NCBI RefSeq assembly: GCF_025979705.1
Contig: NZ_CP110136.1
Location: 1,736,001 to 1,800,000 of the forward strand
Direction of reading: 5' to 3'
From: Hymenobacter sp. YIM 151858-1
GTDB lineage: Bacteria; Bacteroidota; Bacteroidia; Cytophagales; Hymenobacteraceae
DNA length: 64,000 nt
Part shown: positions 1-64,000 of the stretch, piece after piece
Position numbering within the stretch: position 1 is the stretch's first letter
How the letters are laid out: each line of letters opens with the position of its first letter
The notes under the pieces: model-generated
What the model was told of the DNA's origin: nothing
What the model saw: the letters and a program-made list of their open reading frames with translations, nothing else
Databases searched by the model: none
Made by a program: the position numbers and the translations under genes

Positions 1-1
1 G

Positions 2-586
2 CTGGTGGACGATTACGGCGTGCTGCCCTACGCCCGCGCCGCCGCCACTGAGGCCGACATGCCCATCACCACGCTCAGCACCCAGCAAACCGGCACGGCT
101 TTTTTCCTGAACTCCTACCCCAAGCCGGCCCTGGGTTACCTCTACGTGCGCGACCTCCTAGGCGACGAGCTGTTCACGAAGGCGCTGCACACCTACATCC
201 AGAACTGGAACGGCAAGCACCCCATGCCCTTCGACTTCTTCAACTCGATGAACGCCGGGGCCGGCCGCAACCTCAACTGGTTCTGGCAGCGCTGGTTCTT
301 CGACGGCGGCTACCCCGACCTAGGCATTGCCAGCGTAACCAAGCAAGGCGCCAGCTACGATGTGGTAGTGGAAGCAAAAGGCAGCAAGCCCGTTCCCGTG
401 GATTTGACTGTGACTTACGCCGACGGCACTACGCAGCAAGTGCACCGCAACATCGGCGTGTGGGAGTCGGCGCCTAGGTCCATAACCGTGCAAGTACCCG
501 GCGACAAAGCCGTGAAGCAGGTGAAGCTGGGTAGTACTTACGTGCCGGATAGCTACCCGCAGGACAATGTGTGGGAAGGAAAGTAG
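2..586 (+). CDS. M1 family metallopeptidase, C-terminal part (partial)
   Basis: The window opens inside this gene, so the N-terminus and the HExxH zinc site are outside. The visible 194 residues carry the helical region typical of Bacteroidota M1 aminopeptidases: a YPKPALGYLYVRDLLG stretch, then WNGKHPMPFDFFNSMN and NWFWQRWFFDGGYPD, followed by a beta-sandwich tail. The family removes N-terminal amino acids from peptides, usually after export. The stop TAG is at 584-586. The reading frame is already open at base 2 with no start. The family is clear from the helical motifs; substrate is not knowable from this part. Confidence 0.85.
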   Translation: MVDDYGVLPYARAAATEADMPITTLSTQQTGTAFFLNSYPKPALGYLYVRDLLGDELFTKALHTYIQNWNGKHPMPFDFFNSMNAGAGRNLNWFWQRWFFDGGYPDLGIASVTKQGASYDVVVEAKGSKPVPVDLTVTYADGTTQQVHRNIGVWESAPRSITVQVPGDKAVKQVKLGSTYVPDSYPQDNVWEGK

Positions 587-597
587 AACGACCCTGC

Positions 598-685
598 TGT
601 CATCCTGAGCACAGCGAAGGACCTTATCACGTTTGGTTGATTACTACCAAACGTGATAAGGTCCTTCGCTGTGCTCAGGATGACA
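598..685. repeat. Palindromic intergenic element, GA-hairpin family, copy A
   Basis: Two perfect 40-base arms (598-637 and 646-685) surround an 8-base loop. Each arm starts TGTCAT and contains its own small hairpin: TCCT/AGGA stem, opposed GA and GA, then GC-ACA-GC. It lies between the aminopeptidase stop and the rnpB promoter, where it could also act as a terminator for the first gene. Confidence 0.9.
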
Positions 686-711
686 GACGAACCAAGAAAG
701 AAAGAATAAAT

Positions 712-719
712 TACCTTTG
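712..719 (+). promoter_or_regulatory. rnpB promoter, -7 box TACCTTTG
   Basis: TACCTTTG fits the Bacteroidota -7 consensus TAnnTTTG exactly. The first base of the P1 helix of RNase P RNA is at 727, eight bases after the box, the expected distance to a transcription start. No clear -33 TTG element was seen. Confidence 0.75.
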
Positions 720-726
720 CCCGCAA

Positions 727-6996: not shown

Positions 6997-7023
6997 GTAC
7001 TTGCCGGGCTAAGCACCGAATGC

Positions 7024-7062
7024 AACCGCCCCGCCGCCGGCAATGCTGGCAGCGGGGCGGTT
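7024..7062 (+). terminator. Terminator after lipoprotein
   Basis: AACCGCCCCGC (7024-7034) pairs with GCGGGGCGGTT (7052-7062), followed by a short T-rich run. Confidence 0.8.
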
Positions 7063-7083
7063 TGCTTTGGGCACCTAGCTCGT

Positions 7084-7165
7084 TGTCATTTCGAGCGAAG
7101 CGAGAAATCTGGGTTGAAACCATTTAGTTGTCAGTCCCAGATTTTTCGCTTCGCTCGAAATGACA
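7084..7165. repeat. Palindromic intergenic element, GA-hairpin family, copy C
   Basis: Arms 7084-7113 and 7136-7165 match with one difference. Each arm starts TGTCAT and folds with stem ATTTC/GAAAT, opposed GA and GA, and GC-GAA-GC. It sits between convergent genes (lipoprotein and E1 enzyme). Confidence 0.9.
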
Positions 7166-7190
7166 GCTAGCTCAAAACCACAAGCCAGGC

Positions 7191-9611
7191 CTAGTAAATG
7201 TCGGGGAAGCGCTGCGGCTCCACCTCCTGCATCAGCTCGTACACCGTATCGAACACGTCTTCGGCGTTGGGCTTCGAGAAGTAGTCGCCATCGGAGCCGT
7301 AGGGCGGGCGATGGGCCTGCGCCGCCAGGCAGCGCGGCTGCGAATCGAGGTAGCGGTAGCCGCCTTGCTCGTCCACTACCTGCTGCATCATGTAGGCCGT
7401 GGCGCCGCCGGGCACGTCTTCGTCGGCAAACAGCACGCGCGAGGTTTTCTTGATCGACTCCAGAACCACGCCTTCGCGGTCGAAGGGCAGCAAGGTTTGC
7501 ACGTCGATTACCTCCACCGAAATGCCTACTTGCTCCAGCTGCGCAGCGGCATCGAGCACGATGCGGCACATGGAGCCGTAGGTTACGATGGTGATGTCGG
7601 TGCCTTGTTTCAGCACTTCGGGTACACCTAGGGGCAGCGTGAATTCGCCGATGTTGCTCGGGATGCGCTCCTTCAGGCGGTAGCCGTTCAGCGGCTCAAT
7701 CACGATGGCGGGCTCGTCGCTCTTCAACAAGGTGTTGTAGAAACCGGCGGCCTGCGTCATGTTGCGCGGCACGCACAAGTGCATACCCCGGATCGAACCC
7801 AGAATCATTTGGATGGGCGAGCCGCTGTGCCAGATGCCCTCGAGGCGGTGGCCGCGGGTGCGCACAATCAGCGGGGCTTTTTGGCCGCCTTTGGTGCGGT
7901 ACTGCAGCGAGGCCAGGTCGTCCGACAAAATCTGAATGGCGTACAGCAGGTAATCGAGGTACTGGATTTCGGTGATTGGGCGCAGGCCGCGCATGGCCGC
8001 GCCAATGCCCTGGCCCACAATGGTGCACTCGCGGATACCGGTGTCGGTAACGCGCAGCTCGCCGTACTTCTCCTGTAGGCCGGCAAAAGCCTGGTTTACG
8101 TCGCCGATGCGGCCAACGTCTTCGCCGATGGCAAACACGCGCGGGTCGCGGGCCAAAATGGCGTCGAAGCAGGCTTGCAATACCTCTCGGCCGTCGACCT
8201 GCGGGGCATCGGCGGCAAACTCGGGCTTCACCTCTTCCACATTCAGCGCCGATTCTTCGCTCTGGCTGAACAAGTGCGAGTTGTAGCGGTCGGCGTTTTC
8301 GGCCACGGCTTGCTCGTGCCAGCGGCGCAGCTCGCTGCGGGCGCCGGAGCGCTTTACGTCGCGCACGAGGCGCAGCGAGCGGCGCACGGCGCGCATGATA
8401 TCGGCGCGGATGGGCGTGGGGTTGTGCTCAAGCTGGTGAATCAGCTCGTGCAGCTCGTTTTCGCGGCCGGTTTCGGTAGCGAGGTTGTTGAGCAGCTGCA
8501 CGGCTTCGTTGCGCTCGGCCACGATGGGGTTGAAGAACGCTTCCCAAGCCGCAGCGCGCGCTTTGCGCACGGCATCCTTGGCTTCGTTCTCAATCTGGTC
8601 GAGCTCCGCCTCAGTAGCGTGGCCTTCCTGCAGCATCCACTGGCGCATTTGGCGCATGCAGTCGTACTCCTGCTCCCAGGTGAGGCGGTCTTTGCTTTTG
8701 TAACGCTCGTGCGAGCCCGAGGTCGAGTGGCCTTGCGGCTGCGTAAGTTCGGTTACGTGCACCAGCACGGGCACGTGCTCGCGGCGGCACACCTCGGCGG
8801 CGCGCTGGTAGGTATCAACGAGGGCGGCGTAGTCCCAGCCTTTCACCACAAAAATCTCGAAGCCCTGCTCGCCCGGCGCGTTGCGCTGGAAGCCACCTAG
8901 GATTTCGGAAATGCTTTGCTTGCAGGTTTGGTACTCGGCCGGAACCGAAATGCCGTAGTGGTCGTCCCACACGCTCATCAGCATGGGTACTTGCAGCACG
9001 CCGGCCGCGTTGATGGCCTCGAAGAACATGCCCTCCGAGGTGCTAGCGTTGCCGATGGTACCAAAGGCTACCTCGTCGCCGTTGCGCGAAAACTGCGTGA
9101 ACTGCTGCAGCTCGGGGTTTTGGCGGAAGAGCTTGGAGGCGTAGGCCAAACCCAGCAGGCGCGGCATCTGCCCGCCGGTAGGCGAAATATCGGCCGAGGA
9201 GTTTTTGCTGTCGACGAGGGCCTTGAAGTTGCCGTCTTCGTCGAGGAAGCGCGTGGCGAAGTGGCCGTTCATGGCACGGCCGGCGGTGGCGGGCTCGGCT
9301 TCGGCGTCGGGGTGCGCGTAGAGCTGGGCGAAGTACTGCTGCAGCGTCAGCTCGCCCGTAGCGAACATGAAGGTTTGGTCGCGGTAGTAGCCCGAGCGGA
9401 AGTCGCCGGGGCGGAAAGCACGCGCCATAGCCAGCTGCGGCAGCTCTTTGCCGTCGCCGAAGATGCCGAACTTGGCTTTGCCCATAAACACTTCCTTGCG
9501 GCCCGTGAGCGAGGCCTGGCGGCTTTCCCACCCTAGGCGGTAGTCGCGGAGCAGTTCTTCTTTGCTAAGCGTGGCGGCGGCCGAAGCTACGGCCGATTCG
9601 GCAGTGGACAT
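7191..9611 (-). CDS. 2-oxoacid dehydrogenase E1, fused alpha and beta subunits
   Basis: 806 residues from the ATG at 9611 (supported by a promoter box at 9693-9700). The N-terminal half is the thiamine-diphosphate-binding alpha subunit; the C-terminal half from about 470 is the transketolase-like beta subunit (GEDVGRIGDVNQ, LPFDREGV, FADEDVPGG). Such fusions in Bacteroidota act as E1 of branched-chain 2-oxoacid or pyruvate dehydrogenase, feeding E2 with acyl groups. The TPP motif is altered: GNASTSEG at 187-194 where GDG/GDA is usual, and WDDHYG at 215-220 where NN is usual. No E2 or E3 gene is adjacent. Confidence 0.9.
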   Translation of the reverse strand: MSTAESAVASAAATLSKEELLRDYRLGWESRQASLTGRKEVFMGKAKFGIFGDGKELPQLAMARAFRPGDFRSGYYRDQTFMFATGELTLQQYFAQLYAHPDAEAEPATAGRAMNGHFATRFLDEDGNFKALVDSKNSSADISPTGGQMPRLLGLAYASKLFRQNPELQQFTQFSRNGDEVAFGTIGNASTSEGMFFEAINAAGVLQVPMLMSVWDDHYGISVPAEYQTCKQSISEILGGFQRNAPGEQGFEIFVVKGWDYAALVDTYQRAAEVCRREHVPVLVHVTELTQPQGHSTSGSHERYKSKDRLTWEQEYDCMRQMRQWMLQEGHATEAELDQIENEAKDAVRKARAAAWEAFFNPIVAERNEAVQLLNNLATETGRENELHELIHQLEHNPTPIRADIMRAVRRSLRLVRDVKRSGARSELRRWHEQAVAENADRYNSHLFSQSEESALNVEEVKPEFAADAPQVDGREVLQACFDAILARDPRVFAIGEDVGRIGDVNQAFAGLQEKYGELRVTDTGIRECTIVGQGIGAAMRGLRPITEIQYLDYLLYAIQILSDDLASLQYRTKGGQKAPLIVRTRGHRLEGIWHSGSPIQMILGSIRGMHLCVPRNMTQAAGFYNTLLKSDEPAIVIEPLNGYRLKERIPSNIGEFTLPLGVPEVLKQGTDITIVTYGSMCRIVLDAAAQLEQVGISVEVIDVQTLLPFDREGVVLESIKKTSRVLFADEDVPGGATAYMMQQVVDEQGGYRYLDSQPRCLAAQAHRPPYGSDGDYFSKPNAEDVFDTVYELMQEVEPQRFPDIY

Positions 9612-9692
9612 GCAGTTGGTCGTCGGGAAAAAGTAGACGGAGCGGACACCCGCCGGATGGGTGCGGGCGGCCCGCCGAGGCCGGCGGGCCCT

Positions 9693-9700
9693 CAAAAGTA
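9693..9700 (-). promoter_or_regulatory. -7 box (TACTTTTG) for the E1 gene
   Basis: Read on the minus strand this is TACTTTTG, an exact TAnnTTTG match about 80 bases upstream of the ATG at 9611. It lies inside a longer open frame that starts at 9734, which argues for the shorter protein. Confidence 0.6.
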
Positions 9701-9760
9701 CGCAAAAGCGGCACGCAAAGTCGAGGCCCGGCAAACGACCGTTAGGTTCGGGCTTCTGAT

Positions 9761-9768
9761 TATATTTG
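9761..9768 (+). promoter_or_regulatory. -7 box (TATATTTG) for the DUF1573 gene
   Basis: Exact TAnnTTTG match, about 90 bases upstream of the ATG at 9862 and divergent from the E1 promoter. Confidence 0.6.
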
Positions 9769-9861
9769 CTGAGGCTGTTTTACCTTGCCGTTCGGGCCCC
9801 TGGGTGCACCGATTAATGCCTGAGCACGCAGCCTTTAGTCATTCATTTACGCCTTTTTGCT

Positions 9862-10650
9862 ATGCTTCGTACCCTTACTACCTCGCTGCTGGGCTTGTGC
9901 CTGCTGCTCACGGCCCTAGGTGCTTCGGCCCAGGGTGTGCTCGAGTTTACTCAAACCATGCACGACTTCGGCAACGTGGCCGAGGGCAGCGTGGCCACCC
10001 ACGAGTTCAAGTTCAAGAACACCGGCAACCAGCCCGTGGTAATTGCGAATGTGCAGGCATCGTGCGGCTGCACCACCCCCGACTGGACAAAAACGCCCGT
10101 GATGCCCGGCAAAACCGGCTTTATTCGGGCCGCTTACAACAGCGCCGGCCGCCCGGGTCAGTTCAACAAAACCGTAACCGTGACGAGCAACGCTGCTACG
10201 CCTACGCTGGTACTGACCATTAAAGGTGCTGTGGTTGACAAAGCCGAAATGGCCAAGAGCTACACGGCCGCGCAAATTGCCAAGTCACCCAAACTCACCC
10301 TCGACCGCAAGCTGCACGACTTCGGCAAGATGGAATCGGGCCAGCAGCTCACGGCCAAGTTCACAGTAAAGAACACCGGCAAGAGCGACCTGCAGCTGGG
10401 CTCGATTACCTCCAACTGCTACTGCGTATCGCTGCGCAACCAGCCCAAAGCCCTGAAGCCCGGCGAGTCGGCTACCATCGAGCTGCAGTACGCCCAGCGC
10501 CAGATTGGCCAAATGGCCGATGTGGTAACGCTGCACTCCAACGACATCACCGGCCCCGACGCTACCATCACCCTCAAAGCCAACGTGGTACAAAGCCTCT
10601 CGCAGCAAAGCATGCTGAAAGAAGGCGCCGCGGCGGTACCGTTTAAGTAG
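9862..10650 (+). CDS. Secreted protein with two DUF1573 domains
   Basis: 262 residues with signal peptide 1-23 (ASAQ cleavage). Two Ig-like DUF1573 repeats follow: residues 28-120 (HDFGNVAEGS, FKFKNTG, VQASCGCTTPDW, NKTVTVTSN) and 150-250 (HDFGKMESGQ, FTVKNTG, SITSNCYCVSL). The first repeat keeps the typical SCGCT cysteine pair and the second a CYC variant. The family is abundant and exported in Bacteroidota, but its role is not established. It is transcribed alone, divergent from the E1 gene, and is followed by a nested palindromic element and a terminator. Confidence 0.9.
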   Translation: MLRTLTTSLLGLCLLLTALGASAQGVLEFTQTMHDFGNVAEGSVATHEFKFKNTGNQPVVIANVQASCGCTTPDWTKTPVMPGKTGFIRAAYNSAGRPGQFNKTVTVTSNAATPTLVLTIKGAVVDKAEMAKSYTAAQIAKSPKLTLDRKLHDFGKMESGQQLTAKFTVKNTGKSDLQLGSITSNCYCVSLRNQPKALKPGESATIELQYAQRQIGQMADVVTLHSNDITGPDATITLKANVVQSLSQQSMLKEGAAAVPFK

Positions 10651-10712
10651 GACCGCGGATAACTGGCTGCGTCTTGCCTGCTTGGGATGCGCCAGCAACA
10701 AGCACAACGGCC

Positions 10713-10819
10713 GTCATGTCGAGCTTGCCGAGACATCTCGCCGGATAGTATTGTCATCCTGACGCAGAAAGGACCTTCTCACGTCAGGACCTCAGATATC
10801 TCGCTCCGCTCGACATGAC
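10713..10819. repeat. Nested GA-hairpin elements, copy D
   Basis: The outer left arm GTCATGTCGAGC... (from 10713) matches the right arm ending at 10819, with stem ATGTC/GACAT and opposed GA pairs. Inside it a second member starts TGTCATCCTGA at 10752, resembling copy A. It looks like one element inserted into another. Confidence 0.75.
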
Positions 10820-10847
10820 AGGCTTATTGACCTGCTAATTTCTTGCT

Positions 10848-10883
10848 GATGCCACGACCTCAACCGTCGTGGCATCATTTTTT
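10848..10883 (+). terminator. Rho-independent terminator
   Basis: GATGCCACGAC (10848-10858) pairs with GTCGTGGCATC (10866-10876), followed by a run of six T. Confidence 0.85.
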
Positions 10884-10942
10884 GTAGTGCCCGCCTAGGT
10901 GCATTTTGCGCGTTCCTCCCTCAACAACCTCTACCCTACCCG

Positions 10943-11437
10943 ATGCGTGTTTCTTTACCCTTGTTCCTAGGTCTGGCAAGTGCGGCCGTGCTGGGCAGCG
11001 GCTGCGTCCGTAATATTCAGGTGCCCCAGGCCACGCCGCAGTATGGCTTGCAGCTGCGTATTCGGCTACCGAAAATCACGCCGGCTACTACGCTCGATAC
11101 CGTGCGGGTAGCCCTGGAGCTCATCAACACCAACGACGAGCCCTACGTGGTATCCAGCCCGGCACGGCCCCAGGCCACCCTGCCCGTGGCCTACATCGAC
11201 GGGGCACCTAGGGCCTGGCAAATGCACATGCGCCGCGGCAAGGATGTGCGCATCACCCTACCGCCGCGCGGCACTTACCGCGCCACCTACGATTTGCCCA
11301 TGAGTGCTTTTGCGGGCGAGCGGCGCGAGGCCGGCAAACAATATCAGCTGCAGCTGCTTTACCACCCCAAGGTGTACGGCCCCAAAGGGCACCGCGCCAC
11401 GTTCGTCGAAATCCAGAGCAACAAGCTGGCCTTTTGA
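10943..11437 (+). CDS. Lipoprotein, function unknown
   Basis: 164 residues. The signal peptide ends in the lipobox LGSGC (Cys 21), so the protein should be lipid-anchored. The mature domain is predicted beta-rich (LQLRIRLPKI, TVRVALELINTNDEPY, YRATYDLP) and resembles an immunoglobulin-like fold in pattern, with a conserved-looking RGTYRATYDLPMSAF segment. No family is recognised and no catalytic motif is seen. It precedes alanine dehydrogenase by 85 bases, but that gene has its own promoter box, so the two may be separate units. Confidence 0.75.
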   Translation: MRVSLPLFLGLASAAVLGSGCVRNIQVPQATPQYGLQLRIRLPKITPATTLDTVRVALELINTNDEPYVVSSPARPQATLPVAYIDGAPRAWQMHMRRGKDVRITLPPRGTYRATYDLPMSAFAGERREAGKQYQLQLLYHPKVYGPKGHRATFVEIQSNKLAF

Positions 11438-11473
11438 GGTAGCTCGACCGAACGCCGGGCGGCGGGCATTGCC

Positions 11474-11481
11474 TATATTTG
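11474..11481 (+). promoter_or_regulatory. -7 box (TATATTTG) for ald
   Basis: Exact TAnnTTTG match; a start of transcription near 11488 would give a leader of about 34 bases before the ATG at 11522. Confidence 0.65.
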
Positions 11482-11521
11482 CGGCCACTTTTCCCCGTCA
11501 TCACATCCCACCATATTTCCC

Positions 11522-12649
11522 ATGATCATCGGCGTACCGAAGGAAATTAAGAATAACGAAAACCGCGTGGGCGTTACGCCCGCCGGCGTGGCCGAATTCC
11601 GCAAGGCGGGCCACACGGTATATGTGCAAACCAGCGCTGGCGAAGGCAGCGGTTTCTCCGATGCCGATTACGAGCAGGCTGGCGCTATGCTGCTGCCCAC
11701 CATCGCCGATGTGTACGGCCAGGCCGAGATGATCGTGAAGGTGAAGGAGCCCATCCAGGAGGAGTACCAGCTCATCCGCGAAGGCCAGCTGCTGTTCACC
11801 TACTTCCACTTTGCCTCGTCGGAGGAGCTGACGCACGCCATGATCGAGCGCAAGGCTACCTGCTTGGCTTACGAAACCGTAGAGCTGCCCAACCGCTCGC
11901 TGCCCCTGCTGGTGCCCATGAGCGAAGTGGCTGGCCGCATGGCTCCGCAAGAAGGCGCTAAGTACCTCGAGAAGCCGCTGAAAGGCCGCGGCATTCTGCT
12001 AGGTGGCGTACCCGGCGTACGTCCGGCGCAGGTGCTCATCCTGGGCGGTGGCGTGGTAGGCACCAACGCCGCTAAAGTAGCTGCCGGCTTCGGCGCGCAG
12101 GTTACCATCATGGACATCAGCCTGAACCGTCTGCGCGAGCTCGACGACATCATGCCGAAGAACGTGGTGACGCAGTACTCGAACGACTACAACATCCGCG
12201 CTGCCATCAAGGAGGCCGATCTGATCATCGGCGCCGTACTGATTCCGGGCGCTAAGGCTCCGCACCTTGTTACGCGCGAGATGCTGAAGGACATGAAGCC
12301 CGGCGCCGTAGTGGTTGACGTTGCCGTTGACCAAGGTGGCTGCATCGAAACCTGCACCCCCACCACGCACGAGAACCCCACCTTCATCATCGACGATGTG
12401 GTGCACTACTGCGTAGCCAACATGCCCGGCGCGGTGCCCTACACCTCTACCCTGGCCCTCACCAACGCTACCCTGCCCTACGCCATTAAGCTGGCCAACC
12501 TGGGCTGGCGCGAGGCCTGCCTGCGCGACGCTTCGTTGCGCCTGGGCCTGAACGTGGTAAACGGCGAGGTGGTGTACAAAGGCGTAGCCGAGGCTTGGGG
12601 CCTGCCGCTCACCAACGTGAGCAAGATCCTGGAGCCTGCCCACGCGTAA
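11522..12649 (+). CDS. ald: Alanine dehydrogenase
   Basis: 375 residues, the usual length. The enzyme interconverts L-alanine and pyruvate with NAD and ammonia in the cytosol. It opens with [20 protein letters not shown]; the catalytic residues known from the family fall at K75 and H96 (FTYFHFAS), the NAD-binding loop GGGVVG at 175-180, and the [10 protein letters not shown] segment holds the conserved Asp near 268. The C-terminal [21 protein letters not shown] block is characteristic. The start is fixed by the conserved N-terminus and a TAnnTTTG box 41 bases upstream. A palindromic element and a terminator follow. Confidence 0.97.
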
Positions 12650-12658
12650 GTGAATTAA

Positions 12659-12739
12659 GAAGGAATAGTGAGGAAGGAAGATTGCGTTTACGGGCCCAAT
12701 CACCCCTGTTCTGCCTTCTTCCTTCCTCACTACTCCTTC
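12659..12739. repeat. Inverted repeat, purine-rich left arm
   Basis: Arms 12659-12681 and 12717-12739 match with one difference; the left arm is all purine except three T. It resembles the GAG/CTC-rich inverted repeats at 13413 and 46085 but the 8-base phasing is not clear here. Confidence 0.7.
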
Positions 12740-12745
12740 ACCCTT

Positions 12746-12776
12746 AAAAAAGCCTCCCCTACAAGGGAGGCTTTTT
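12746..12776 (+). terminator. ald terminator
   Basis: AAAAAAGCCTCCC and GGGAGGCTTTTT pair around a six-base loop. Confidence 0.9.
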
Positions 12777-12804
12777 GCTAACTCGAATACCTTCTTTCTC
12801 CGCG

Positions 12805-13404
12805 ATGCAAGACATCACCTACATCGGCGAGCCCATTTCCGATTCGGCTACCTTTAAGCTGCTGCCTTTTGAGATGCAAGCCTTTATGCTGCAGCACAAT
12901 GGCATGGTTGCTTTTCTGGGCGGCCTGCACATTCGGGGTTGCTGCCACGAGCCGGCCTGGCACTCGCTGCGCGAGGCCTGGCAGGGCGAAAATGCATTTT
13001 GGCGCACCTACGCCAGCGTAAAGCAAAGCGACCTGCCTTTCGCCCAGGATGCGGTGGGCAATCAGTTTCTGCTGCGCCGCGGCGAGGTGTGGTGGCTCGA
13101 TACCGAAACCGGCGAAATGGAAAACCTGGGCGTAGACTTCGTGCGGTTTATTCGCGGCGTGGAGCTGTACCCCGACCAAGCCCTCGACCTGCAGGCCGTT
13201 TCGATGTTCACGAACCTAGGAGCCGTGCTGCAACCGGGCGAGCTGCTGGCCGTGTACCCGCCCAACTGCATCAAGGCTGAAAACGAAAACTTCAACCTGA
13301 CGCGCATGCCCGTGGATGTGCGCCTGGGCTCGTTGGCCAACCTGTATCAGCAGATCCGCCGCCTCAAGCCCGGCCAGAAAATTCGTCTGCGTAAAGACTA
13401 TTAG
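12805..13404 (+). CDS. SMI1/KNR4 (SUKH)-like protein, tentative
   Basis: 199 residues from the ATG at 12805; the earlier in-frame ATG overlaps the terminator of the previous gene. The pattern YIGEPISDS, GCCHEPAWHSLREAW, DLPFAQDAVGNQFLLRRGEVWWLDTETGEME resembles the SUKH fold, in which a polar binding surface precedes DxxGNxFLL and a short beta hairpin. SUKH proteins often act as immunity proteins against secreted toxins, but single housekeeping-like copies are also common; no toxin gene is adjacent. Assignment rests on motif resemblance only and could be wrong; it might be an unrelated cytosolic protein. Confidence 0.5.
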   Translation: MQDITYIGEPISDSATFKLLPFEMQAFMLQHNGMVAFLGGLHIRGCCHEPAWHSLREAWQGENAFWRTYASVKQSDLPFAQDAVGNQFLLRRGEVWWLDTETGEMENLGVDFVRFIRGVELYPDQALDLQAVSMFTNLGAVLQPGELLAVYPPNCIKAENENFNLTRMPVDVRLGSLANLYQQIRRLKPGQKIRLRKDY

Positions 13405-13412
13405 CAGTTTGT

Positions 13413-13534
13413 GAGTTAGGGAGTTGAGGAGTTTATGAGTTGGCGGGTTTAGGGTAAAGAGTGGCGCGAAACGAACGCATCAACTCTTCAACTCATAAAC
13501 TCTCCCACTCACAAACTCCTCAACTCCCTAACTT
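13413..13534. repeat. Inverted repeat made of 8-base-phased units
   Basis: Left arm: GAGTT starts at 13413, 13421, 13429 and 13437 and GGGTT at 13445. Right arm: AACTC starts at 13482, 13490, 13498, 13514 and 13522, with CACTC at 13506 and AACTT at 13530. Every step is exactly eight bases. The element fills the space between the SUKH-like gene and the start of the sulfatase gene at 13551. Confidence 0.9.
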
Positions 13535-13550
13535 TTTCCTTCCTCCTCGT

Positions 13551-15494
13551 ATGCCCTCATTTTTGCTGCAACTGCTGCTCCGGCGCTTTGCGCTGCTGCT
13601 GGCGGCTTACCTGCTGTTGCGCGGCGGGTTTTATGCGGCCAACTATAGCGTGTTTGCCGAGGCCTCCGCGGCGCAAACGTTGTGGGCGTTCTGGCACGGT
13701 TTCCGGTTCGATTTATCGGCGCTTTTGCTGCTAAACTTTCCGTTCTTGCTGCTCTCGCTGATACCAGCATACGGGCGCACCTGGCAGCGCACGCTGCGGG
13801 GCGTGTACCTCACGCTCAACGCCCCGGGGCTGGTCCTGAACATCATCGACAGCCAGTACTTCAAATTCATCGGGCGGCGCACCTCCGATGAGCTGTTCAC
13901 CATTACCGGCGACATTGAGCGGCAGGCCGGGCAGCTGGTGTGGCACTACTGGTTTTTGGTGCCGCCGTTTGCGGTGCTGTTTGGCTTGCTGTGGTACTTC
14001 TACCCCATGCCCAAAGCCGCGCCGGCGCCAGCTAACGCGGCTAACCCGCTGCGCCGCATGGCTCGCACCATGCTAGCGGTAGCGCTGGTGGCTGGCCTGG
14101 CAGTGCTGGGCATCCGCGGAGGGCTGCAGCTGAAACCCTTGCGGCCCGGCCACGCCTTCGTGCAGACGCCGCCGAGCCTGGGTCATCTGGCCCTCAACAG
14201 CACCTTTACCTTTATCAAAAGCTTTGGGCAGAAGGTGTTGGAGCGGCGTGACTACTTTGCCACGCCGGCCGCCTTGCAGCAGGCCCTAGGTGCCAGCTAC
14301 CCCGCGCCGCGCCCGCAGCCCACCGCCACCCGCCCCGATAACGTGGTGATTTTGCTGGTGGAAGGCTTTGCCTCGGAGTACAACGGCATCGAAAACCCGG
14401 GCCAGCGCAGCTACACGCCTTTCTTCGATTCGCTGGCCACGCAGGGGCTGCTGTTTCGGGAGCACTACGCCAACGGCCGCCGTTCCATTGAGGCGCTGCC
14501 CGCCGTGTTGGCCGGTTTGCCGGGGCTGATGGAGTCGCCGTACATCACCTCCAACTTTCAGACAAACGAGCTGCACGGTTTAGGCGAACTGCTGGGGCGC
14601 CAGGGCTATACGACGTCGGTTTTTCATGGGGCCCAAAACGGCACCATGGGCTTCAATGTGTTTGCCGGCAAAGCGGGCATTCGGCAGTACTACGGGCTCG
14701 AAGAATATCCCCGCGGCGCCAAAAGCCCCGACTACGATGGGCACTGGGGCATTTTCGACGAGCCGTACCTGCAGTACTTCGCCCGGCAGCTTACGCAGCA
14801 GCGGCAGCCGTTTTTCTCAACGGTGTTCACGCTGACCTCGCACGAGCCCTTTCCGGTGCCGACGCAGTACCAGGGCCGCTTTGCACCCGGCGAGCTGCCC
14901 ATTCATGCCTCCATCGGCTACACCGATTTTGCCCTGAAGCGCTTTTTCGCCACGGCCAGCCAGCAGCCGTGGTACCGCAATACGCTGTTCATTCTGCTCG
15001 CCGACCACACCTCGCAAAGCCTGCAACCCGGTTACCAGAACCTGCTCGGCGCCTACAAAACGCCGCTGCTCCTGTTTCACCCCGGTGGTAAGCTACCGGC
15101 TGCCGATGTGCACCGCATTACGCAGCAAGCCGATGTGCCCGCCACCGTGCTCGATTACCTAGGCTTTGGCGCCGATGCCAGCCAGCTGCTGCCGTTTGGG
15201 TATTCGGTGTTCGACAATCGAGTAACTGGGCGTGCGGTATTCCTCTCGGGCAACACTTACTACCTGGTGCACCGCGACTACGTAACCGAGCTGACGACCG
15301 ACAACCAGGTGCGCCTCTACCCCTACCGCACCCACAGCCTGCCGGCCCAGCCGCTGGCGCAGCCACCTAGGGACAAACAGCAGGCCTACGGCAACGAGCT
15401 ACGCGCTTTGGTGCAGTTCTTTACCAATGGGCTGCTCGATAATACTTTGTATCCGAAGCTCAGTGCACCAACAACTGTAGCGCGGACTTTGTAG
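13551..15494 (+). CDS. LTA-synthase-like membrane sulfatase / phosphoglycerol transferase family
   Basis: 647 residues from the ATG at 13551; an earlier in-frame GTG at 13461 would start inside the phased repeat. Residues 1-240 hold about five membrane segments, then an extracytoplasmic alkaline-phosphatase-like domain: NVVILLVEGFASEYNG (first metal-binding Glu), NGRRSIEALPAVLAGLP (nucleophile position, Ser rather than the Thr of LtaS), FTLTSHEPF and ILLADHTSQ. In LtaS the domain transfers glycerol phosphate; Bacteroidota homologues are of uncertain substrate, perhaps phosphoethanolamine or glycerol phosphate on surface glycans. The last five codons and stop are supplied by the repeat at 15477-15714. 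Confidence 0.85.
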   Translation: MPSFLLQLLLRRFALLLAAYLLLRGGFYAANYSVFAEASAAQTLWAFWHGFRFDLSALLLLNFPFLLLSLIPAYGRTWQRTLRGVYLTLNAPGLVLNIIDSQYFKFIGRRTSDELFTITGDIERQAGQLVWHYWFLVPPFAVLFGLLWYFYPMPKAAPAPANAANPLRRMARTMLAVALVAGLAVLGIRGGLQLKPLRPGHAFVQTPPSLGHLALNSTFTFIKSFGQKVLERRDYFATPAALQQALGASYPAPRPQPTATRPDNVVILLVEGFASEYNGIENPGQRSYTPFFDSLATQGLLFREHYANGRRSIEALPAVLAGLPGLMESPYITSNFQTNELHGLGELLGRQGYTTSVFHGAQNGTMGFNVFAGKAGIRQYYGLEEYPRGAKSPDYDGHWGIFDEPYLQYFARQLTQQRQPFFSTVFTLTSHEPFPVPTQYQGRFAPGELPIHASIGYTDFALKRFFATASQQPWYRNTLFILLADHTSQSLQPGYQNLLGAYKTPLLLFHPGGKLPAADVHRITQQADVPATVLDYLGFGADASQLLPFGYSVFDNRVTGRAVFLSGNTYYLVHRDYVTELTTDNQVRLYPYRTHSLPAQPLAQPPRDKQQAYGNELRALVQFFTNGLLDNTLYPKLSAPTTVARTL

Positions 15495-15714
15495 TCCGCG
15501 TCCGCGGATAGTAATGTCTGACCTAGGGAAATGTAGCGCAGGCTTGGCTACGCCTTCCTACGGTTCAGCCCGCGTTGGCGTGAACGATTGCTGCTGCGCG
15601 GTTACGCCCTACGACGACGTGCTGGCACACGCGGGCTAAAGCCCGCGCTACACCGCGCTAACGGCAACGATTGATTTTACTATCCGGGGACGCGGACTAC
15701 AAAGTCCGCGCTAC
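15477..15714. repeat. GTAGCGCGG-family inverted repeat overlapping both flanking genes
   Basis: Arms 15477-15514 and 15677-15714 match at 37 of 38 positions. Each arm begins GTAGCGCGGACTTTGTAG, which is read in frame as VARTL-stop at the end of the sulfatase gene (plus) and of the nuclease-domain gene (minus). A smaller inverted pair (TGTAGCGC near 15532 and GCGCTACA near 15645) lies inside, so the element seems nested. Confidence 0.9.
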
Positions 15715-16176
15715 TTCCAGCAGTTCCAGCGCCTCGGCGTAGGTTGGAATAAACGTAAGTGCCTGCGTGGTGCGCTCGATGCTGTGCACGCGCCAGCAAC
15801 AGTGCTGCACGCCGTTGGTTACGAGCAGCAGCGGGGCGCCAATCGTTTGGTTGTAGGTGGCAATTTGCATAGCCACATCAGCGGTAAGCGGCACGCTGGC
15901 GGCTTTGCACTCTACCAGCAGCAGCGGCTGGCCTGCCGGGCCCAGGGCGTGCAGATCGGTGCGTTTGCGGCGTTGGTTGTAGGTGTGGCCGCGCTCCAGG
16001 CTGAGCAGGCCGCGCGGGTACCCCAGGTGCTCAACCAAGTAGTTTACAACGTGTTGCCGCACCCATTCTTCGGGGGTGCACACCACGTTGCGGCGGCGGA
16101 GCACGTCCCAGATCAACAGATTCGGGCCCGATTGCGTAACTTTGTAGGCGAAAGGCGGCAGGTTCAACGCTTGCAT
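15697..16176 (-). CDS. Orphan type I restriction enzyme R N-terminal-like nuclease domain
   Basis: 159 residues if started at MQALNLPPF, the usual beginning of this family; an ATG at 16248 would add 24 residues. The fold is a PD-(D/E)xK type nuclease: RKRTDLHALG gives the Asp and LLLVECKAA the E-x-K pair, preceded by VRQHVVNYLVEHLGYPRGLLSLE. It matches the HSDR_N_2-like domain found alone in most Bacteroidota. There is no helicase, methylase or specificity gene nearby, so it is not a working type I system. Its role is unknown. The C-terminal VARTL is encoded by the repeat arm. Confidence 0.75.
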   Translation of the reverse strand: MQALNLPPFAYKVTQSGPNLLIWDVLRRRNVVCTPEEWVRQHVVNYLVEHLGYPRGLLSLERGHTYNQRRKRTDLHALGPAGQPLLLVECKAASVPLTADVAMQIATYNQTIGAPLLLVTNGVQHCCWRVHSIERTTQALTFIPTYAEALELLEVARTL

Positions 16177-16307
16177 CACCTCCAAAGGTACGGCTAACAG
16201 GCTCCTGCACCCGCTTTTTCGCTCCGCAGAGCCGTCGTTCACTATCATGCACGACGGTTTTTTTGCATCCGTACCCCAACCTACCCGGCATTTCCCATCA
16301 ATACACC

Positions 16308-17081
16308 ATGAAGACCAAATCAGACATTGTCAAGAACTGGCTGCCCCGCTACACCGGGGTACCGCTGGAGGACTTTGGCCAGTACATTCTGCTGACCAAT
16401 TTCATCAACTACGTAACCATGTTCGCCGAGCATTTCGGCGTCGAGATTAAGGGCATCGACAAGCCCATGCAAACGGCCACGGCCAACGGCATTACCATCA
16501 TCAACTTCGGCATGGGCTCGGCCATGGCTGCCACCGTGATGGATTTACTCGGGGCCATCAAGCCGAAAGCGGCGCTGTTTCTGGGCAAGTGCGGCGGCCT
16601 GAAGGGCAAAACCAAAGTGGGCGACCTGATTCTGCCCATCGCGGCCATTCGCGGCGAAGGTACCTCCGACGACTACCTGCCGCCGGAAATCCCGGCTCTG
16701 CCTTCGTTTCGCTTGCAGCGCTCGGTTTCTTCCATGATCAAGAAGCACGAGAAGGACTACTGGACGGGCACCGTGTACACCACCAACCGCCGCGTGTGGG
16801 AGCACGACGAGAACTTCAAGAACTACCTGCGCCAGATCCGGGCCATGGCCGTGGACATGGAAACGGCTACCATTTTCGTGGTGGGCTTCGTGAACGAGAT
16901 TCCGCACGGCGCCTTGCTGCTGGTATCCGACGAGCCGATGACGCCAGAGGGCGTGAAAACCGCCGAGAGCGACAAGAGCGTAACGTCGAACTACGTTACC
17001 ACGCACCTGCAAATCGGCATCGAGTCGCTGCTGGAGCTGAAGAACTCCGGCGAATCGGTGAAGCACATGCGCTTCGAATAA
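16308..17081 (+). CDS. amn: AMP nucleosidase
   Basis: 257 residues from the ATG at 16308. The enzyme cleaves AMP to adenine and ribose 5-phosphate. The sequence reads as a nucleoside phosphorylase fold: INFGMGSAMAATVMDLLGAIKPKAALFLGKCGGL (ligand-binding loop), VGDLILPIAAIRGEGTSDDYLPPE (phosphate/base contact) and AVDMETATIFVVGF (the ribose-binding DMET segment), ending with the LLVSDEPMTPEGVKT block. This is the shorter Bacteroidota form without the long N-terminal domain of E. coli Amn. It is transcribed away from the nuclease-domain gene. Confidence 0.92.
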   Translation: MKTKSDIVKNWLPRYTGVPLEDFGQYILLTNFINYVTMFAEHFGVEIKGIDKPMQTATANGITIINFGMGSAMAATVMDLLGAIKPKAALFLGKCGGLKGKTKVGDLILPIAAIRGEGTSDDYLPPEIPALPSFRLQRSVSSMIKKHEKDYWTGTVYTTNRRVWEHDENFKNYLRQIRAMAVDMETATIFVVGFVNEIPHGALLLVSDEPMTPEGVKTAESDKSVTSNYVTTHLQIGIESLLELKNSGESVKHMRFE

Positions 17082-17086
17082 GACCA

Positions 17087-17120
17087 CGGATTCAGGCGGA
17101 TTTTTCGGATTTCGCGGATT
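17087..17120. repeat. Short CGGATT array, 9-10 base period
   Basis: CGGATT starts at 17087, 17097, 17106 and 17115 directly after the amn stop. No matching inverted arm was found nearby. Confidence 0.75.
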
Positions 17121-17246
17121 TTGTGGACGTGCCTCAACGGTGCTCTGGCCTGGCGGCCGGGGCACCGTTGTTGTTTTCGGACCCCTGGGCGCAACCGATG
17201 CAATGGCTGGCAACGGGGTGCCTCGGGCCCTAGGTGGCGGGCCGGT

Positions 17247-17254
17247 TTATTTTG
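17247..17254 (+). promoter_or_regulatory. Near-consensus -7 box (TTATTTTG) for the amidohydrolase
   Basis: TTATTTTG resembles TTACTTTG at 20733 and on the minus strand at 33891. It lies 43 bases before the ATG at 17297 and inside the longer frame from GTG 17234, favouring the later start. Confidence 0.45.
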
Positions 17255-17296
17255 CCTGGGACTTGGGCTAACTTGCCGCCTTACTCCGCCTTGCCC

Positions 17297-18961: not shown

Positions 18962-18982
18962 TCAACTGTAATTCAGACCAAC

Positions 18983-19066
18983 TGTCATTCCGAGCGTGAG
19001 CGAGGAATCTGGTGCTGCCGACACAACGTTGCTGACCCAAATTCCTCGCTCACGCTCGGAATGACA
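18983..19066. repeat. Palindromic intergenic element, GA-hairpin family, copy E
   Basis: Arms 18983-19008 and 19041-19066 are perfect. Each starts TGTCAT and folds with stem ATTCC/GGAAT, opposed GA and GA, and GC-GTGA-GC. Confidence 0.9.
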
Positions 19067-19072
19067 AGATGC

Positions 19073-19110
19073 CGAACGGCCCCGCCTGCAGCTGCAGGCG
19101 GGGCCGTTCG
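19073..19110. terminator. Bidirectional palindromic terminator
   Basis: A perfect 38-base palindrome (CGAACGGCCCCGCCTGCAG and its complement) centred between 19091 and 19092, between convergent genes. Confidence 0.85.
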
Positions 19111-19165
19111 ATTTAGGTAACCCCTAGGTGCCCCAGGGCTGCTCAGGCACCTAGGGCTGCGCAAC

Positions 19166-20602: not shown

Positions 20603-20732
20603 AAAGTAAGGCAGTAGAAGAATGCCCAAACTACGCAGTTTTAGTTATTGCGGACGTTGCGCCTTGGTTAAGTAAAGCGCCATGCAGTTGCCTGCGCCGC
20701 CGGCTGCACCCGCCACCTAGGCAGCGCGGTGT

Positions 20733-20740
20733 TTACTTTG
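20733..20740 (+). promoter_or_regulatory. Near-consensus -7 box (TTACTTTG) for the ClC gene
   Basis: TTACTTTG followed by CGGCC; a transcript from near 20747 would exclude the GTG at 20729 and supports the GTG at 20765 as start. Confidence 0.45.
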
Positions 20741-20764
20741 CGGCCACATCAGCCCCGAGCACCT

Positions 20765-22075: not shown

Positions 22076-22302
22076 GCCTTAGCAAAATCACGTTTTCAAA
22101 AAATCTTACAACAAATGTAACCCAAGGCCAAGCTGCGCCGTTGGTACGGGGGTGTAGTAGTGCGCGTGCGTGAGAAGCTGATGTGAGCCCTTGCCTGGCA
22201 AGGCCTGTTGTGCCGAGGGCAGCAGTAGTAAATATCCCGACGCGTACCCCCCTTCTGCCCCACGTAGTTGTTGCAACTCCTGCTCTTACCGCCGCTTTTC
22301 CC

Positions 22303-22542: not shown

Positions 22543-22561
22543 GTGGCAGCAAATATGTAAG

Positions 22562-22606
22562 CGCGCGGGCCCCACAAACCAACCTGGTTCGTGGGGCCCG
22601 CGCGTT
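22562..22606. terminator. Bidirectional terminator
   Basis: CGCGCGGGCCCCAC and GTGGGGCCCGCGCG pair across AAACCAACCTGGTTC, followed by TTTTTG, between two convergent small genes. Confidence 0.85.
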
Positions 22607-22631
22607 TTTGTTGACGACTGACGACTGACTG

Positions 22632-22940: not shown

Positions 22941-22995
22941 GATGAATAGGTGGAGAAGCAACCCGAGGGCTGCGGGTACGAAACAAGCAGTAGCG

Positions 22996-40352: not shown

Positions 40353-40429
40353 GCGCGAAGGGAGGTTAGTGGAACGTTTGGAAATTGGGTGCGGCCGGCG
40401 CCCTAGGTGCCGGCCGGCTGCACCAGCAC

Positions 40430-44666: not shown

Positions 44667-44773
44667 CGGCTGACGGGCAACAACCTGCAACGAGCCTTGG
44701 GCTCGTGGCCCTAGGTGGCCAGGCCTGCTTTTCGACCTAGGGCCCGGTTGATTGCGGTTGCTACCGAGCGAAA

Positions 44774-61293: not shown

Positions 61294-61713
61294 TAGCTAC
61301 AACACCCGGGCAGTGCCATAAGCTCCATCTAACACATGAAACAGATATTATTTTCTAGCTGATTAACAGTGTTTTATGCGTCAAATAATTTATCGTCTGT
61401 TAATCCGAAACCGGCGGTTGGCTTAGCCAATTTGGCCTTTGCGCTGGTACAGAAAAGGTGCAGGTAAGCGCAGCCTGCCGCCCTTGTATGTGCTGCTTAG
61501 GGCACGGGGGGCAAGGTCAACAATTCGGTACCCGGTTTGCCGGCGTAGGCGTTGACAAGGCACCGCTTTCTCGCCTAGGCCTGAAAGCGCACTGGCTTAA
61601 CTATTCGACTTTTAACTTCACTTCTGCTTCAACAATAGCCTATTATTTATCTGAATAGTAACATCTTACAAATCAAACCACAACCATAGCAATGGCCAGC
61701 CAGTTTAGCCAAT
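61294..61713. other. Gene-free stretch of about 420 bases
   Basis: Markedly AT-rich around 61330-61410. No RNA gene, terminator with T-tract, or repeat of the families seen elsewhere was found. It may hold the promoters of the divergent radical-SAM and 2H genes. Confidence 0.5.
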
Positions 61714-62229
61714 ATGCCTGCCATTGATGCCCCGCTTATCCTCACGCTTTCGCTCGACGAACGGACGTTCGGCTACTTCAACGCCTTGCGTCAGAAGCAC
61801 TTTCCGCCGGAGCGCAACTACCTCGATGCGCACTTCACGCTGTTCCACCACCTGCCCGGCCCCGCCCACGACGACATTGCCGCGGTGCTGGTTGCCCGGG
61901 CGCAGGCGCAGCGCCCCATGCCCATGCGCGTAACGGGCTTGCAGTTTTTGGGGCGCGGGGTAGCCTTCGCGCTCGACGCCCCCGAGGCCGAGGCCTTGCA
62001 CCGCGAGCTGCAGGCCCTGTGGCGCGCGCACCTTACGCCGCAGGATCAGCAGCGGCGCCGGCCCCACGTAACCATCCAGAACAAGGTAACGCCCGCCGCG
62101 GCCCGCGCGCTGCACGAGCAGCTGAGCGCCGGCTTCGAGCCTTTTGAGGCCACAGGCACGGGCTTGCAGCTGTGGGCCTACCGCAACGGGCCCTGGGAGC
62201 TGCTGCGCAGTTTCGCGTTTGGCGCCTAG
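61714..62229 (+). CDS. 2H phosphoesterase (2'-5' RNA ligase family)
   Basis: 171 residues. Both HxT motifs of the 2H superfamily are present: H40-F-T42 (LDAHFTLFHH) and H118-V-T120 (RPHVTIQNKV), about 78 residues apart as expected. The family includes RNA end-processing phosphodiesterases and uncharacterised Bacteroidota members; the target is unknown. No partner gene nearby. The stop TAG lies in CCTAGG. Confidence 0.88.
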   Translation: MPAIDAPLILTLSLDERTFGYFNALRQKHFPPERNYLDAHFTLFHHLPGPAHDDIAAVLVARAQAQRPMPMRVTGLQFLGRGVAFALDAPEAEALHRELQALWRAHLTPQDQQRRRPHVTIQNKVTPAAARALHEQLSAGFEPFEATGTGLQLWAYRNGPWELLRSFAFGA

Positions 62230-62298
62230 GTTTGCGCGTGGTTGCGGCACCGGGCACCTCCGGGCTTTGTCGGGCAACCCCATCCCCCACCCTATCCG

Positions 62299-62916
62299 AT
62301 GCTTATGAAAGCGCTGCTGCTTATTGATATTCAGAACGACTTTGTACCCGGCGGCGCTTTGGCCGTGCCCGCGGGCGACCAGGTTATTCCGCTGGCCAAC
62401 GCGCTGCAACCGCACTTCGAGCTGGTGGTGGCCACCCAGGACTGGCACCCGCGCACGCACAAAAGCTTTGCGGCCAACCACCCGGGCAAAAACGAGTTCG
62501 AAACCACCGAGCTGCACGGGCTGGAGCAAGTGCTGTGGCCGGTGCACTGCGTGCAGGGCACCGCGGGCGCCGAGCTACACCCCGCCCTCGATACGCAGCG
62601 CATCGAGGCCATTTTCCGGAAGGGCACCAACCCCGAAATCGACAGCTACAGCGGCTTGTTCGACAACGGCCACCAGAAGGCCACGGGCCTAGCCGATTAC
62701 CTGCGCGGCAAGGGCGTGCGGCAGGTGTACGTGGCCGGCCTGGCCGGCGACTACTGCGTGTATTTCACGGCCAAAGATGCCCTGCAGGAAGGCTTCGAGA
62801 CGTACCTGATCGAGGACGCCGCCCGCCCGATTTCGGCCGAGGGCTACGAGCGTGCCAAAGCCGACATTGCGCGGCGCGGCGGGCGCATCGTGCACAGCAG
62901 CACCCTGCTGGGCTAA
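62299..62916 (+). CDS. pncA: Nicotinamidase
   Basis: 205 residues from MLMKALLLIDIQNDF; the ATG at 62305 is equally possible. Catalytic triad D10 (LIDIQNDFVPGG), K108 (IFRKGTNPE) and C153 (AGLAGDYCV), with the metal-binding DWHPRTH. It hydrolyses nicotinamide to nicotinate for NAD salvage. The N-terminal residues before the start are Pro-rich and not part of the fold. Transcribed in the same direction as the 2H gene, 70 bases apart. Confidence 0.95.
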   Translation: MLMKALLLIDIQNDFVPGGALAVPAGDQVIPLANALQPHFELVVATQDWHPRTHKSFAANHPGKNEFETTELHGLEQVLWPVHCVQGTAGAELHPALDTQRIEAIFRKGTNPEIDSYSGLFDNGHQKATGLADYLRGKGVRQVYVAGLAGDYCVYFTAKDALQEGFETYLIEDAARPISAEGYERAKADIARRGGRIVHSSTLLG

Positions 62917-63069
62917 GCCGGCGAGGCACCAAGGGCACAGCGAGCCGCCGCGCCCTGGCCGGAGTAGCGCACCGCCACCCTAGCTACGGCCACAACCTTT
63001 GCCGCAGCGGCGGGGTACAGCATGAGGCCTGCCGCTGGCCGGCAGTGGCCTGCCCATGCTGTTCCGTTT

Positions 63070-64000
63070 ATGTCCGACCTAGGCCTCAACCTCCCCTATC
63101 AGCTTGATATTGCCCTGCGCACCGCCGCCGTTGTGGTGGGCGGTTTGGCTGCCGGGCTGCTGCTGAAGTTTGCCATTTTCGCGGTGCTGCGTACCTACAG
63201 CCACCGCCCCGACGACCCGGTTTTGCTGCGCTCGGTGGTGCGGCGGCTGAAGCGCCCGAGCGGCTACTTTCTGCCCGTGCTGGTGCTGTCGTTTGTGTTG
63301 CCGCTGGCCCCGCTGGCGCCCAAGCCCTTCGAGGTGTTGCGGCGCATTGTCGAAACCTGTCTGATTACCTCGTTTGCGTGGTGCCTGGTGCGGCTCGTGC
63401 GGGTGGTGCAGGATGTGGTGCAGCACCACTACCGCCTCGACGAGGGCGACAACCTGCGGGTGCGCAAGCTGTTCACGCAGCTGCAGTTTGTGCGCAAGTT
63501 TGTGGTGTCGCTGATTGTGTTTCTGGCCGTGGCGTTGGTGCTGATGAGCTTTGCCACGGTGCGCAAAATCGGTACGGGCTTGCTTACCTCGGCGGGTATT
63601 GCCAGCGTAATCGTGGGCTTTGCGGCGCAGCGCTCCATCAGCAACTTGCTGGCCGGCTTTCAGATAGCCTTTACCCAACCCATCCGGCTCGACGACGTGC
63701 TGGTGGTGGAAGGCGAGTGGGGCCGTGTGGAAGAAATTACCTTCACCTACGTGGTGCTGCGCATCTGGGACGAACGCCGGCTGGTGCTGCCGCTCAACTA
63801 CTTCATCGAAAAACCCTTCCAGAACTGGACGCGCACCACCTCGCAGCTGCTCGGCACCGTGCACCTGCAAACCGACTACACCATTCCGATTGATGAGGTA
63901 CGCACGGCCCTGCAGCGTATTGTGGAGCAAAGCCAATATTGGGATAAGCGCGTGTGCGTGCTGCACGTCACCGACTCCAAAGACCGCACCCTGGAGCTGC
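63070..64000 (+). CDS. MscS-type mechanosensitive ion channel (partial, 3' end outside)
   Basis: About 310 codons visible from ATG at 63070 (MSDLGLNLPYQLD), the rest lies beyond the window. Four or five membrane helices precede the pore helix TM3: GTGLLTSAGIASVIVGFAAQRSISNLLAGFQIAF, the Gly/Ala-packed helix of MscS, then the beta domain IRLDDVLVVEGEWGRVEEITFTYVVLRIWDERRLVLPLNYFIEKPFQNW. Channels of this kind release solutes on hypo-osmotic shock. Codon 4-5 (CTAGGC) is inside CCTAGG. Confidence 0.92.
   Translation, partial: MSDLGLNLPYQLDIALRTAAVVVGGLAAGLLLKFAIFAVLRTYSHRPDDPVLLRSVVRRLKRPSGYFLPVLVLSFVLPLAPLAPKPFEVLRRIVETCLITSFAWCLVRLVRVVQDVVQHHYRLDEGDNLRVRKLFTQLQFVRKFVVSLIVFLAVALVLMSFATVRKIGTGLLTSAGIASVIVGFAAQRSISNLLAGFQIAFTQPIRLDDVLVVEGEWGRVEEITFTYVVLRIWDERRLVLPLNYFIEKPFQNWTRTTSQLLGTVHLQTDYTIPIDEVRTALQRIVEQSQYWDKRVCVLHVTDSKDRTLEL

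Follow-up and report, generated by a model that had tools for sequence, protein, structure and literature searches.

To our knowledge, DNA uptake words have been proven only in Neisseriaceae and Pasteurellaceae, both of which possess type IV pili. Within the single family Neisseriaceae, eight dialects of the DNA uptake sequence (DUS) with the three-base core CTG are described (Frye et al. 2013, PMC3630211). A paper on DUES gives 0 observed copies of GCCTAGGC against 151 expected, in a table column that by its position belongs to E. coli K-12 (PMC1939737). Transformation of Riemerella anatipestifer is reported to need ComEC, DprA and ComF, and a transposon screen of this species yielded essential outer-membrane or surface proteins unlike known machinery, DUF5689 among them (PMC8459023). 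No report of an uptake word or of CCTAGG repeats in Hymenobacter or Bacteroidota was found among the listed titles and abstract openings of the open literature. Here, a stretch of 64,000 nucleotides (the window) from the large contig of Hymenobacter sp. YIM 151858-1 (source genome, G000) was analysed. An earlier note had seen about 80 copies of CCTAGG in it and had described them as a highly iterated palindrome in the style of cyanobacterial HIP1. The repeat was identified as a directional word, (C/G)CCTAGGT(G/C), and its pattern is closer to DUS dialects than to HIP1 or to the product of a repair process opposite to Vsr. Of the explanations considered, a DUS-like self-tag kept by pilus-independent transformation is favoured, with about an even chance of being right.

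The window contains 81 copies of CCTAGG, compared with 14.4 expected from 100 dinucleotide shuffles (standard deviation 3.5, largest count 27). Thus, the number seen by eye and its excess over chance were confirmed, and all 16 positions named in the earlier note match CCTAGG. Counting both strands, there are 40 copies of CCTAGGTG. Other CTAG contexts were correctly said to be infrequent: 81 of the 123 CTAG tetramers lie within CCTAGG, the next most frequent context, GCTAGC, reaches 10, and there is no equal excess of all contexts. The following features represent the repeat:

1..64000, no strand assigned: set of 81 CCTAGG copies, 75 of which have the form ACCTAGG plus a following G, C or A, or its reverse complement
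157..162, no strand assigned: first CCTAGG of the window, a typical single site found as a motif match

The excess is genome-wide. The genome of 4.62 Mb consists of three contigs (4.36 Mb, 158 kb and 101 kb) and holds 5,325 CCTAGG; the word is enriched about 15-fold over a second-order model. For CCTAGGTG, 1,224 + 1,189 copies were counted, compared with 3 + 3 for a control pattern read backwards. A chromosome sample of 484 kb (22 pieces of the large contig, window included) contains 567 CCTAGG, i.e. 1.17 per kb.

The palindromic nature of the repeat was not confirmed. Among the 566 sample sites with full context, T flanks CCTAGG on exactly one side in 521, and the full palindrome ACCTAGGT was found just 10 times, though about half of the flanking positions are of the A/T type. 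Hence, the word is directional and not a palindromic repeat. After strand correction, the side opposite the T carries C in 64%, G in 27% and T in 9% of cases; the T tends to be followed by G or C. The comparison with HIP1 holds for a word iterated throughout the genome, but not for a palindrome. CCTAGGT is balanced between the strands of the genome (2,561 forward, 2,535 reverse). Both strands are also used in the sample, where the spacing of CCTAGG is random (coefficient of variation 1.02); regular spacing was therefore rejected.

A protein of the window has its best named relatives in Hymenobacter (81% identity to H. pini), and the family was accordingly taken as Hymenobacteraceae. CCTAGGT was further counted in 204 genomes of the family, G000 included. 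Eight of these, the carriers, contain 5,096 to 8,746 copies. The next-highest counts are 666 (G109) and 618 (G080), and most genomes have fewer than 200. The comparison with relatives proposed in the earlier note gave a 60- to 190-fold higher frequency of CCTAGGT per Mb than in five non-carriers of the genus. CTAG as such is abundant in carriers and rare in non-carriers of the genus. A quick tree of RpoB and RpoC from 40 chosen genomes places the carriers in three separate branches, G000/G005/G007 (support 89), G070/G076/G158 (100) and G125/G140 (99), each with relatives lacking the word. The branches differ in detail. GCTAGGT (105) is as frequent as CCTAGGT (83) in G070/G076/G158, and the palindrome ACCTAGGT is enriched there (21 vs 2.2). 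For G125/G140 the T was shown at 57 of about 80 sites, and CCCTAGGG is enriched too (9 vs 0.8). CCTAGG exceeded 0.31 per kb in no named relative (80 loci, best of 591 relatives). As a separate observation, TGGATCC, the reversed control of CCTAGGT, totals 0 to 3 copies in several genomes of genus g5 (e.g. G063, G112 and G119) and not in others; restriction at GGATCC in some lineages may be responsible.

Words of other branches were counted in samples of 20-60 kb per genome, not in whole genomes. They occur at about 0.5-0.8 per kb. CCCTAGGG is the word of G109 (20 observed, 0.5 expected in 40 kb), GGCTAGCC that of G032 and G084 (41 and 4.6 in 80 kb), TGGCCTAG that of G080, G172 and G082, and GGGGGTAG that of G112, G083 and G124 (60 and 2.8 in 100 kb). 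CTATACCT was found in three named Pontibacter loci and in G222 (genus g3), with 67 observed and 2.9 expected in 87 kb. CTAGGCCA, with 102 observed and 7.0 expected in 140 kb, is also among the words of other branches. A weaker seventh word, GGGTAGGG (G060, G074), is inflated by tandem arrays, with 98 pairs in the same orientation less than 50 bp apart. CTA on one strand is common to all words and forms the core of the six well-supported ones. No clear word was detected in the samples of several genomes, among them G001, G003, G009, G016, G020, G028, G098, G154, G169 and G171, nor in those of G165, G168 and G099.

Two further patterns were seen in these samples. A TAGGG-type unit is present in tandem arrays and in dispersed copies in G060 and G074 (L159, L178, L276, L281). 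Sequences of the GGGGGCTTTTT type are overrepresented at L139, L140 and L179 (G116, G139), and TGGGGGGC occurs 17 times against 0.8 in 40 kb of G116. GGGGGCTTTTT lacks the CTA core; it is possibly terminator-like and was not counted as a dialect.

The origin of the sites was examined in two 20 kb stretches of G000, one from the window and one around rpoB, aligned with seven genomes of the genus:

7001..27000, no strand assigned: part of the window used for the ortholog comparison

Twenty-five of the 42 sites were scored (T on one side, alignment with three or more of the four non-carrier genomes) and 17 were set aside. At the scored sites the non-carrier consensus is 1 to 5 bases off the word, on average 2.68 of 7 (38%), compared with 12% in the four flanking bases. 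The differences hit all seven positions and are of many kinds, G>C, C>A, G>A, C>T, T>C and A>G among them. At one site of the rpoB region, three differences are private to G000, and the seven relatives are identical. Words were formed at 4 of 52 places one step away, at 8 of 698 two steps away and at 9 of 3,753 three steps away; these rates are about 4, 17 and 34 times those of 60 permuted words. With many types of substitution and formation in several steps, no single mutational or repair bias can be responsible, whereas a preference for the finished word can explain the data. The repair process opposite to Vsr considered in the earlier note is thus not supported. Orthologous positions, to which that note had pointed, keep the word in the related carriers (23 of 34 aligned sites in G005, 22 of 33 in G007), but differ from it in the non-carrier consensus at the 25 scored sites. 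Tree and outgroup G003 suggest that carriers gained the word, and not that non-carriers lost it.

Gene positions in the G000 sample were taken from a simple gene caller. The words comprise 294 coding, 212 intergenic and 36 border sites, and their density is 1.82 per kb in intergenic DNA vs 0.80 per kb in genes. A CTA leucine codon followed by a GGN glycine codon accounts for 264 of the coding sites. Copies had been claimed for every frame, but one frame per orientation would give a TAG stop. Of the two rare codons said to be forced by the repeat, CTA was confirmed, while AGG is forced in just 30 sites. Among CTN codons after C and before glycine, CTA makes up 278 of 550 (50.5%), compared with 3-5% in other contexts; the identical context in 280 kb of non-carrier relatives has CTA in 8 of 228 cases. 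CTA is raised solely where the word gets completed. Therefore, codon usage is not the cause, in agreement with the earlier note.

The two small contigs contain 3 CCTAGGT in 80 kb sampled vs 90 expected. From their matches to Hymenobacter plasmids, both are taken for putative plasmids. The sample of the 101 kb contig has conjugation genes and is 90% identical over 66% to a plasmid of Hymenobacter cellulosilyticus; that of the 158 kb contig has a partial match to a Hymenobacter plasmid, 28% at best. Gaps of more than 3.8 kb in the chromosome sample include stretches of low GC content and a type III restriction-modification operon; others, one of them near rpoB, fit neither. At L200 (2608-8471), 5.9 kb are without the word, and type III restriction-modification genes adjoin an HNH nuclease gene.

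Spacers between converging genes are the densest in words, with 4.4 per kb (54 in 12.3 kb) vs 2.0 in tandem and 1.7 in diverging spacers (p 2e-6 vs other spacers). Fourteen of the 24 G000 pairs less than 50 bp apart have the inverted arrangement CCTAGGT...ACCTAGG (p 5e-4). An excess in the same direction was found for G070/G076/G158 (6 of 11) and the G080 group (4 of 4). Six inverted pairs were folded. Two of them are very stable (z -6.5 and -8.05); stability is modest for the four pairs of the window (z between -1.2 and -2.3):

19123..19155, no strand assigned: inverted pair CCTAGGT...ACCTAGG, hairpin between converging predicted genes; -27.2 kcal/mol, z -1.6
39018..39056, no strand assigned: inverted pair CCTAGGT...ACCTAGG; in the minimum-energy fold other bases are paired, in the centroid the two words; z -1.2
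40402..40434, no strand assigned: inverted pair CCTAGGT...ACCTAGG with a stem reaching past the word; -41.4 kcal/mol, z -2.0
44710..44741, no strand assigned: inverted pair CCTAGGT...ACCTAGG, hairpin between converging predicted genes; -34.0 kcal/mol, z -2.3

A dispersed element of about 240 bp, similar to miniature inverted-repeat transposable elements (MITEs), lies at 15477-15714 of the window. It has terminal inverted repeats of 38 bp and holds one copy of the word. It was found at about six places, itself included, in the 484 kb of G000 and at dozens among the listed matches in G005 and G007, but at none in 280 kb of five non-carrier relatives.

As a self-tag, the word would mark DNA of the own species, which cells would take up or preferentially recombine. 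Word-bearing fragments would be inherited more often, and point mutations making or completing the word would spread. The outcome would be about one word per kb on both chromosome strands, wherever a synonymous or intergenic change permits. Words would stay scarce on plasmids and recently acquired islands without recombination with the chromosomes of relatives. If the reading protein switched its specificity, a lineage would adopt a new word, and dialects would arise within the family. The machinery would have to differ from that of Neisseria and Haemophilus, because no ATPase of the type IV pilus type was found; other surface proteins, by a Riemerella-like route, would be most likely. In favour of this reading are the frequency of the non-palindromic word on both strands at random spacing, the dialects of other branches, the differences of several steps from relatives, the rise of CTA where it completes the word, the scarcity on the two plasmid-like contigs, the intergenic enrichment and the inverted pairs. 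The pattern leads us to infer natural transformation, preferential uptake and a protein that reads the word. A binding-protein target, as mentioned in the earlier note, may apply and comes near to this. The more specific proposal, a pilus-independent, sequence-specific exchange of DNA by a DUS system that evolved independently in this family of another phylum, with fast-changing words, a reader that often switches and nearly the same word in three branches, is tentative, and we would put it a little below an even chance.

Several results weigh against uptake. No match to the T2SSE/PilB/PilT-type ATPase family (PF00437, E 0.001, 204 genomes) was obtained in the eight carriers; 76 of the 204 genomes match at this threshold, 7 of them above the curated cut-off, and no carrier is among the 76. 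The type IV pilus apparatus is the known reader of DUS, and it was not found in the carriers. Uptake by type IV pili was therefore rejected for them. The inner-membrane channel ComEC, which counts in favour of uptake, was present in all 38 genomes searched, with or without words, and is not discriminating. No reader protein was found among the candidates. In six genomes, the 10 kb neighbourhood of ComEC is mostly conserved, and no variable receptor stands out. DUF5689 matches 78 of the 204 genomes. The matches are strong in G222 and in each of the five carriers from genus g5, and weak, with a different, shorter protein, in G005 and G007. It has no match in the word-bearing genomes G000, G109, G112, G083, G032, G084, G172 and G082, and G080 and G124 have almost the same protein despite their different words. 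Hence, this surface lipoprotein does not track the words and was rejected as a general receptor. Furthermore, the one-mismatch neighbours of the word are mostly not enriched, and the enriched ones resemble decay products; near-matches thus show no partial function. The excess of inverted pairs is absent in G005 (1 of 2), G007 (2 of 4), G125/G140 (0 of 1), G112/G083/G124 (2 of 7) and the Pontibacter-type samples (4 of 21). A recent arrival of the plasmids may explain part of their scarcity in words. Hymenobacter is not named in the competence papers among the matches listed, so that competence has no support from there. Nevertheless, Riemerella transforms with unusual surface proteins, and therefore missing pili do not exclude uptake.

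The DUF5689 gene of G080 is located in a SusC-SusD-phosphoesterase operon. Comparing G080 with G124, identity is mostly 93-100% in the SusC-SusD-DUF5689-phosphoesterase block (L275 5136-12287, L277) and mostly 70-90% in the neighbouring sequence. The cassette thus appears to have been exchanged recently.

Other causes have to be weighed against transformation. The word could act within the cell as a Chi-like or chromosome-maintenance signal, read by AddAB/RecBCD, a segregation protein or a nucleoid protein and selected for its role in repair or segregation. The word is asymmetric, and it is present in the chromosome but hardly in the two plasmid-like contigs. In addition, a weak regional imbalance of orientation in the 484 kb sample speaks for such a signal and against uptake: CCTAGGT lies on the plus strand in 112 of 190 cases in the eight pieces up to 1.65 Mb, vs 95 of 219 in the ten pieces at 1.84-3.83 Mb. 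This split was made post hoc, and the imbalance could follow gene direction. Both orientations occur in all 22 pieces with random spacing, and the enrichment over model and non-carriers, together with the frequent change of words, seems beyond the Chi cases known to us. We regard this signal as unlikely, though worth keeping in mind. A methylation ratchet of the HIP1 type is still less probable. In Elhai's model (2015), the word is marked by a resident methyltransferase, and mutations that create it are retained through mismatch repair; no use of the word is needed. The frequency of about 1,150 words per Mb falls inside the published range of HIPs (500-2,500 per Mb; PMC4390886), and the sporadic replacement of words among relatives and the differences by point substitution fit as well. 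Of the methyltransferase families PF01555, PF00145 and PF02384, searched in 10, 13 and 22 genomes, PF02384 occurs in seven of the eight carriers. It is also present in all five non-carriers of the genus, and PF01555 and PF00145 occur in three and two of the eight carriers. Since each is missing from some carriers, a shared methyltransferase was rejected as common cause for these three families; other families were not searched. The asymmetry of the word and the contigs of the same cell that are nearly without it also speak against the ratchet.

Small mobile hairpins, similar to repetitive extragenic palindromes (REP) or MITEs, could have spread the words in place of substitution. Some copies do stand in extended inverted pairs, and the dispersed element near 15,477 has one copy. 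However, most aligned sites show substitutions in conserved sequence and no insertion, by which this explanation is already contradicted there, and the spacing is random. It is very improbable. A mutational or repair bias writing CTAG, for instance the opposite of Vsr, would agree with the abundance of CTAG in carriers and its rarity in non-carriers of the genus. The many kinds of substitution at seven positions already contradict a single bias, CTA is raised solely where it completes the word, and other CTAG hexamers are rare. This bias can hardly be maintained at all.

If true, six well-supported words and one weaker word in one family, beside close relatives without words, would make the origin, spread and switching of such words testable. 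Under the uptake reading, barriers should limit the exchange of DNA among these species, and a new protein that reads DNA should exist. If methylation or repair is responsible instead, then, as far as known, cyanobacteria would no longer be the only group with a clear HIP-like case, and sister genomes of carriers and non-carriers are at hand.

A side observation concerns HIP1: the window avoids GATC (63 vs 161 expected), CGATCG (3 vs 33) and GCGAT (17 vs 89), the opposite of the cyanobacterial repeat. Compared with known systems, the word resembles HIP1 and alternate HIPs in its frequency of about one copy per kb, its presence in coding and non-coding DNA and its sporadic replacement by other words (Elhai 2015, PMC4390886). 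Unlike HIP1, described there as palindromic and associated with methyltransferases, it is asymmetric, and no methyltransferase family searched occurs in all carriers. Riemerella anatipestifer belongs to the same phylum; the main text of the paper on its transformation never mentions 'uptake sequence' (PMC8459023), and its DUF5689 protein was not found in all word-carrying genomes. The Neisseriaceae DUS differ in belonging to another phylum. Furthermore, the carriers have no detected pilus-type ATPase, nearly the same word recurs in three branches, and the words differ more from each other. The likeness to DUS is one of sequence pattern, and a ComP-like receptor is known for the Neisseriaceae side only. 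Shared with these DUS are a short, non-palindromic word, thousands of copies, dialects with a three-base core and some relatives without words (PMC3630211). As in DUS, some copies in G000 stand as inverted pairs near gene ends, a feature that is weak or absent in several other samples. This core is CTG in the Neisseriaceae DUS and CTA in the six well-supported words described here.

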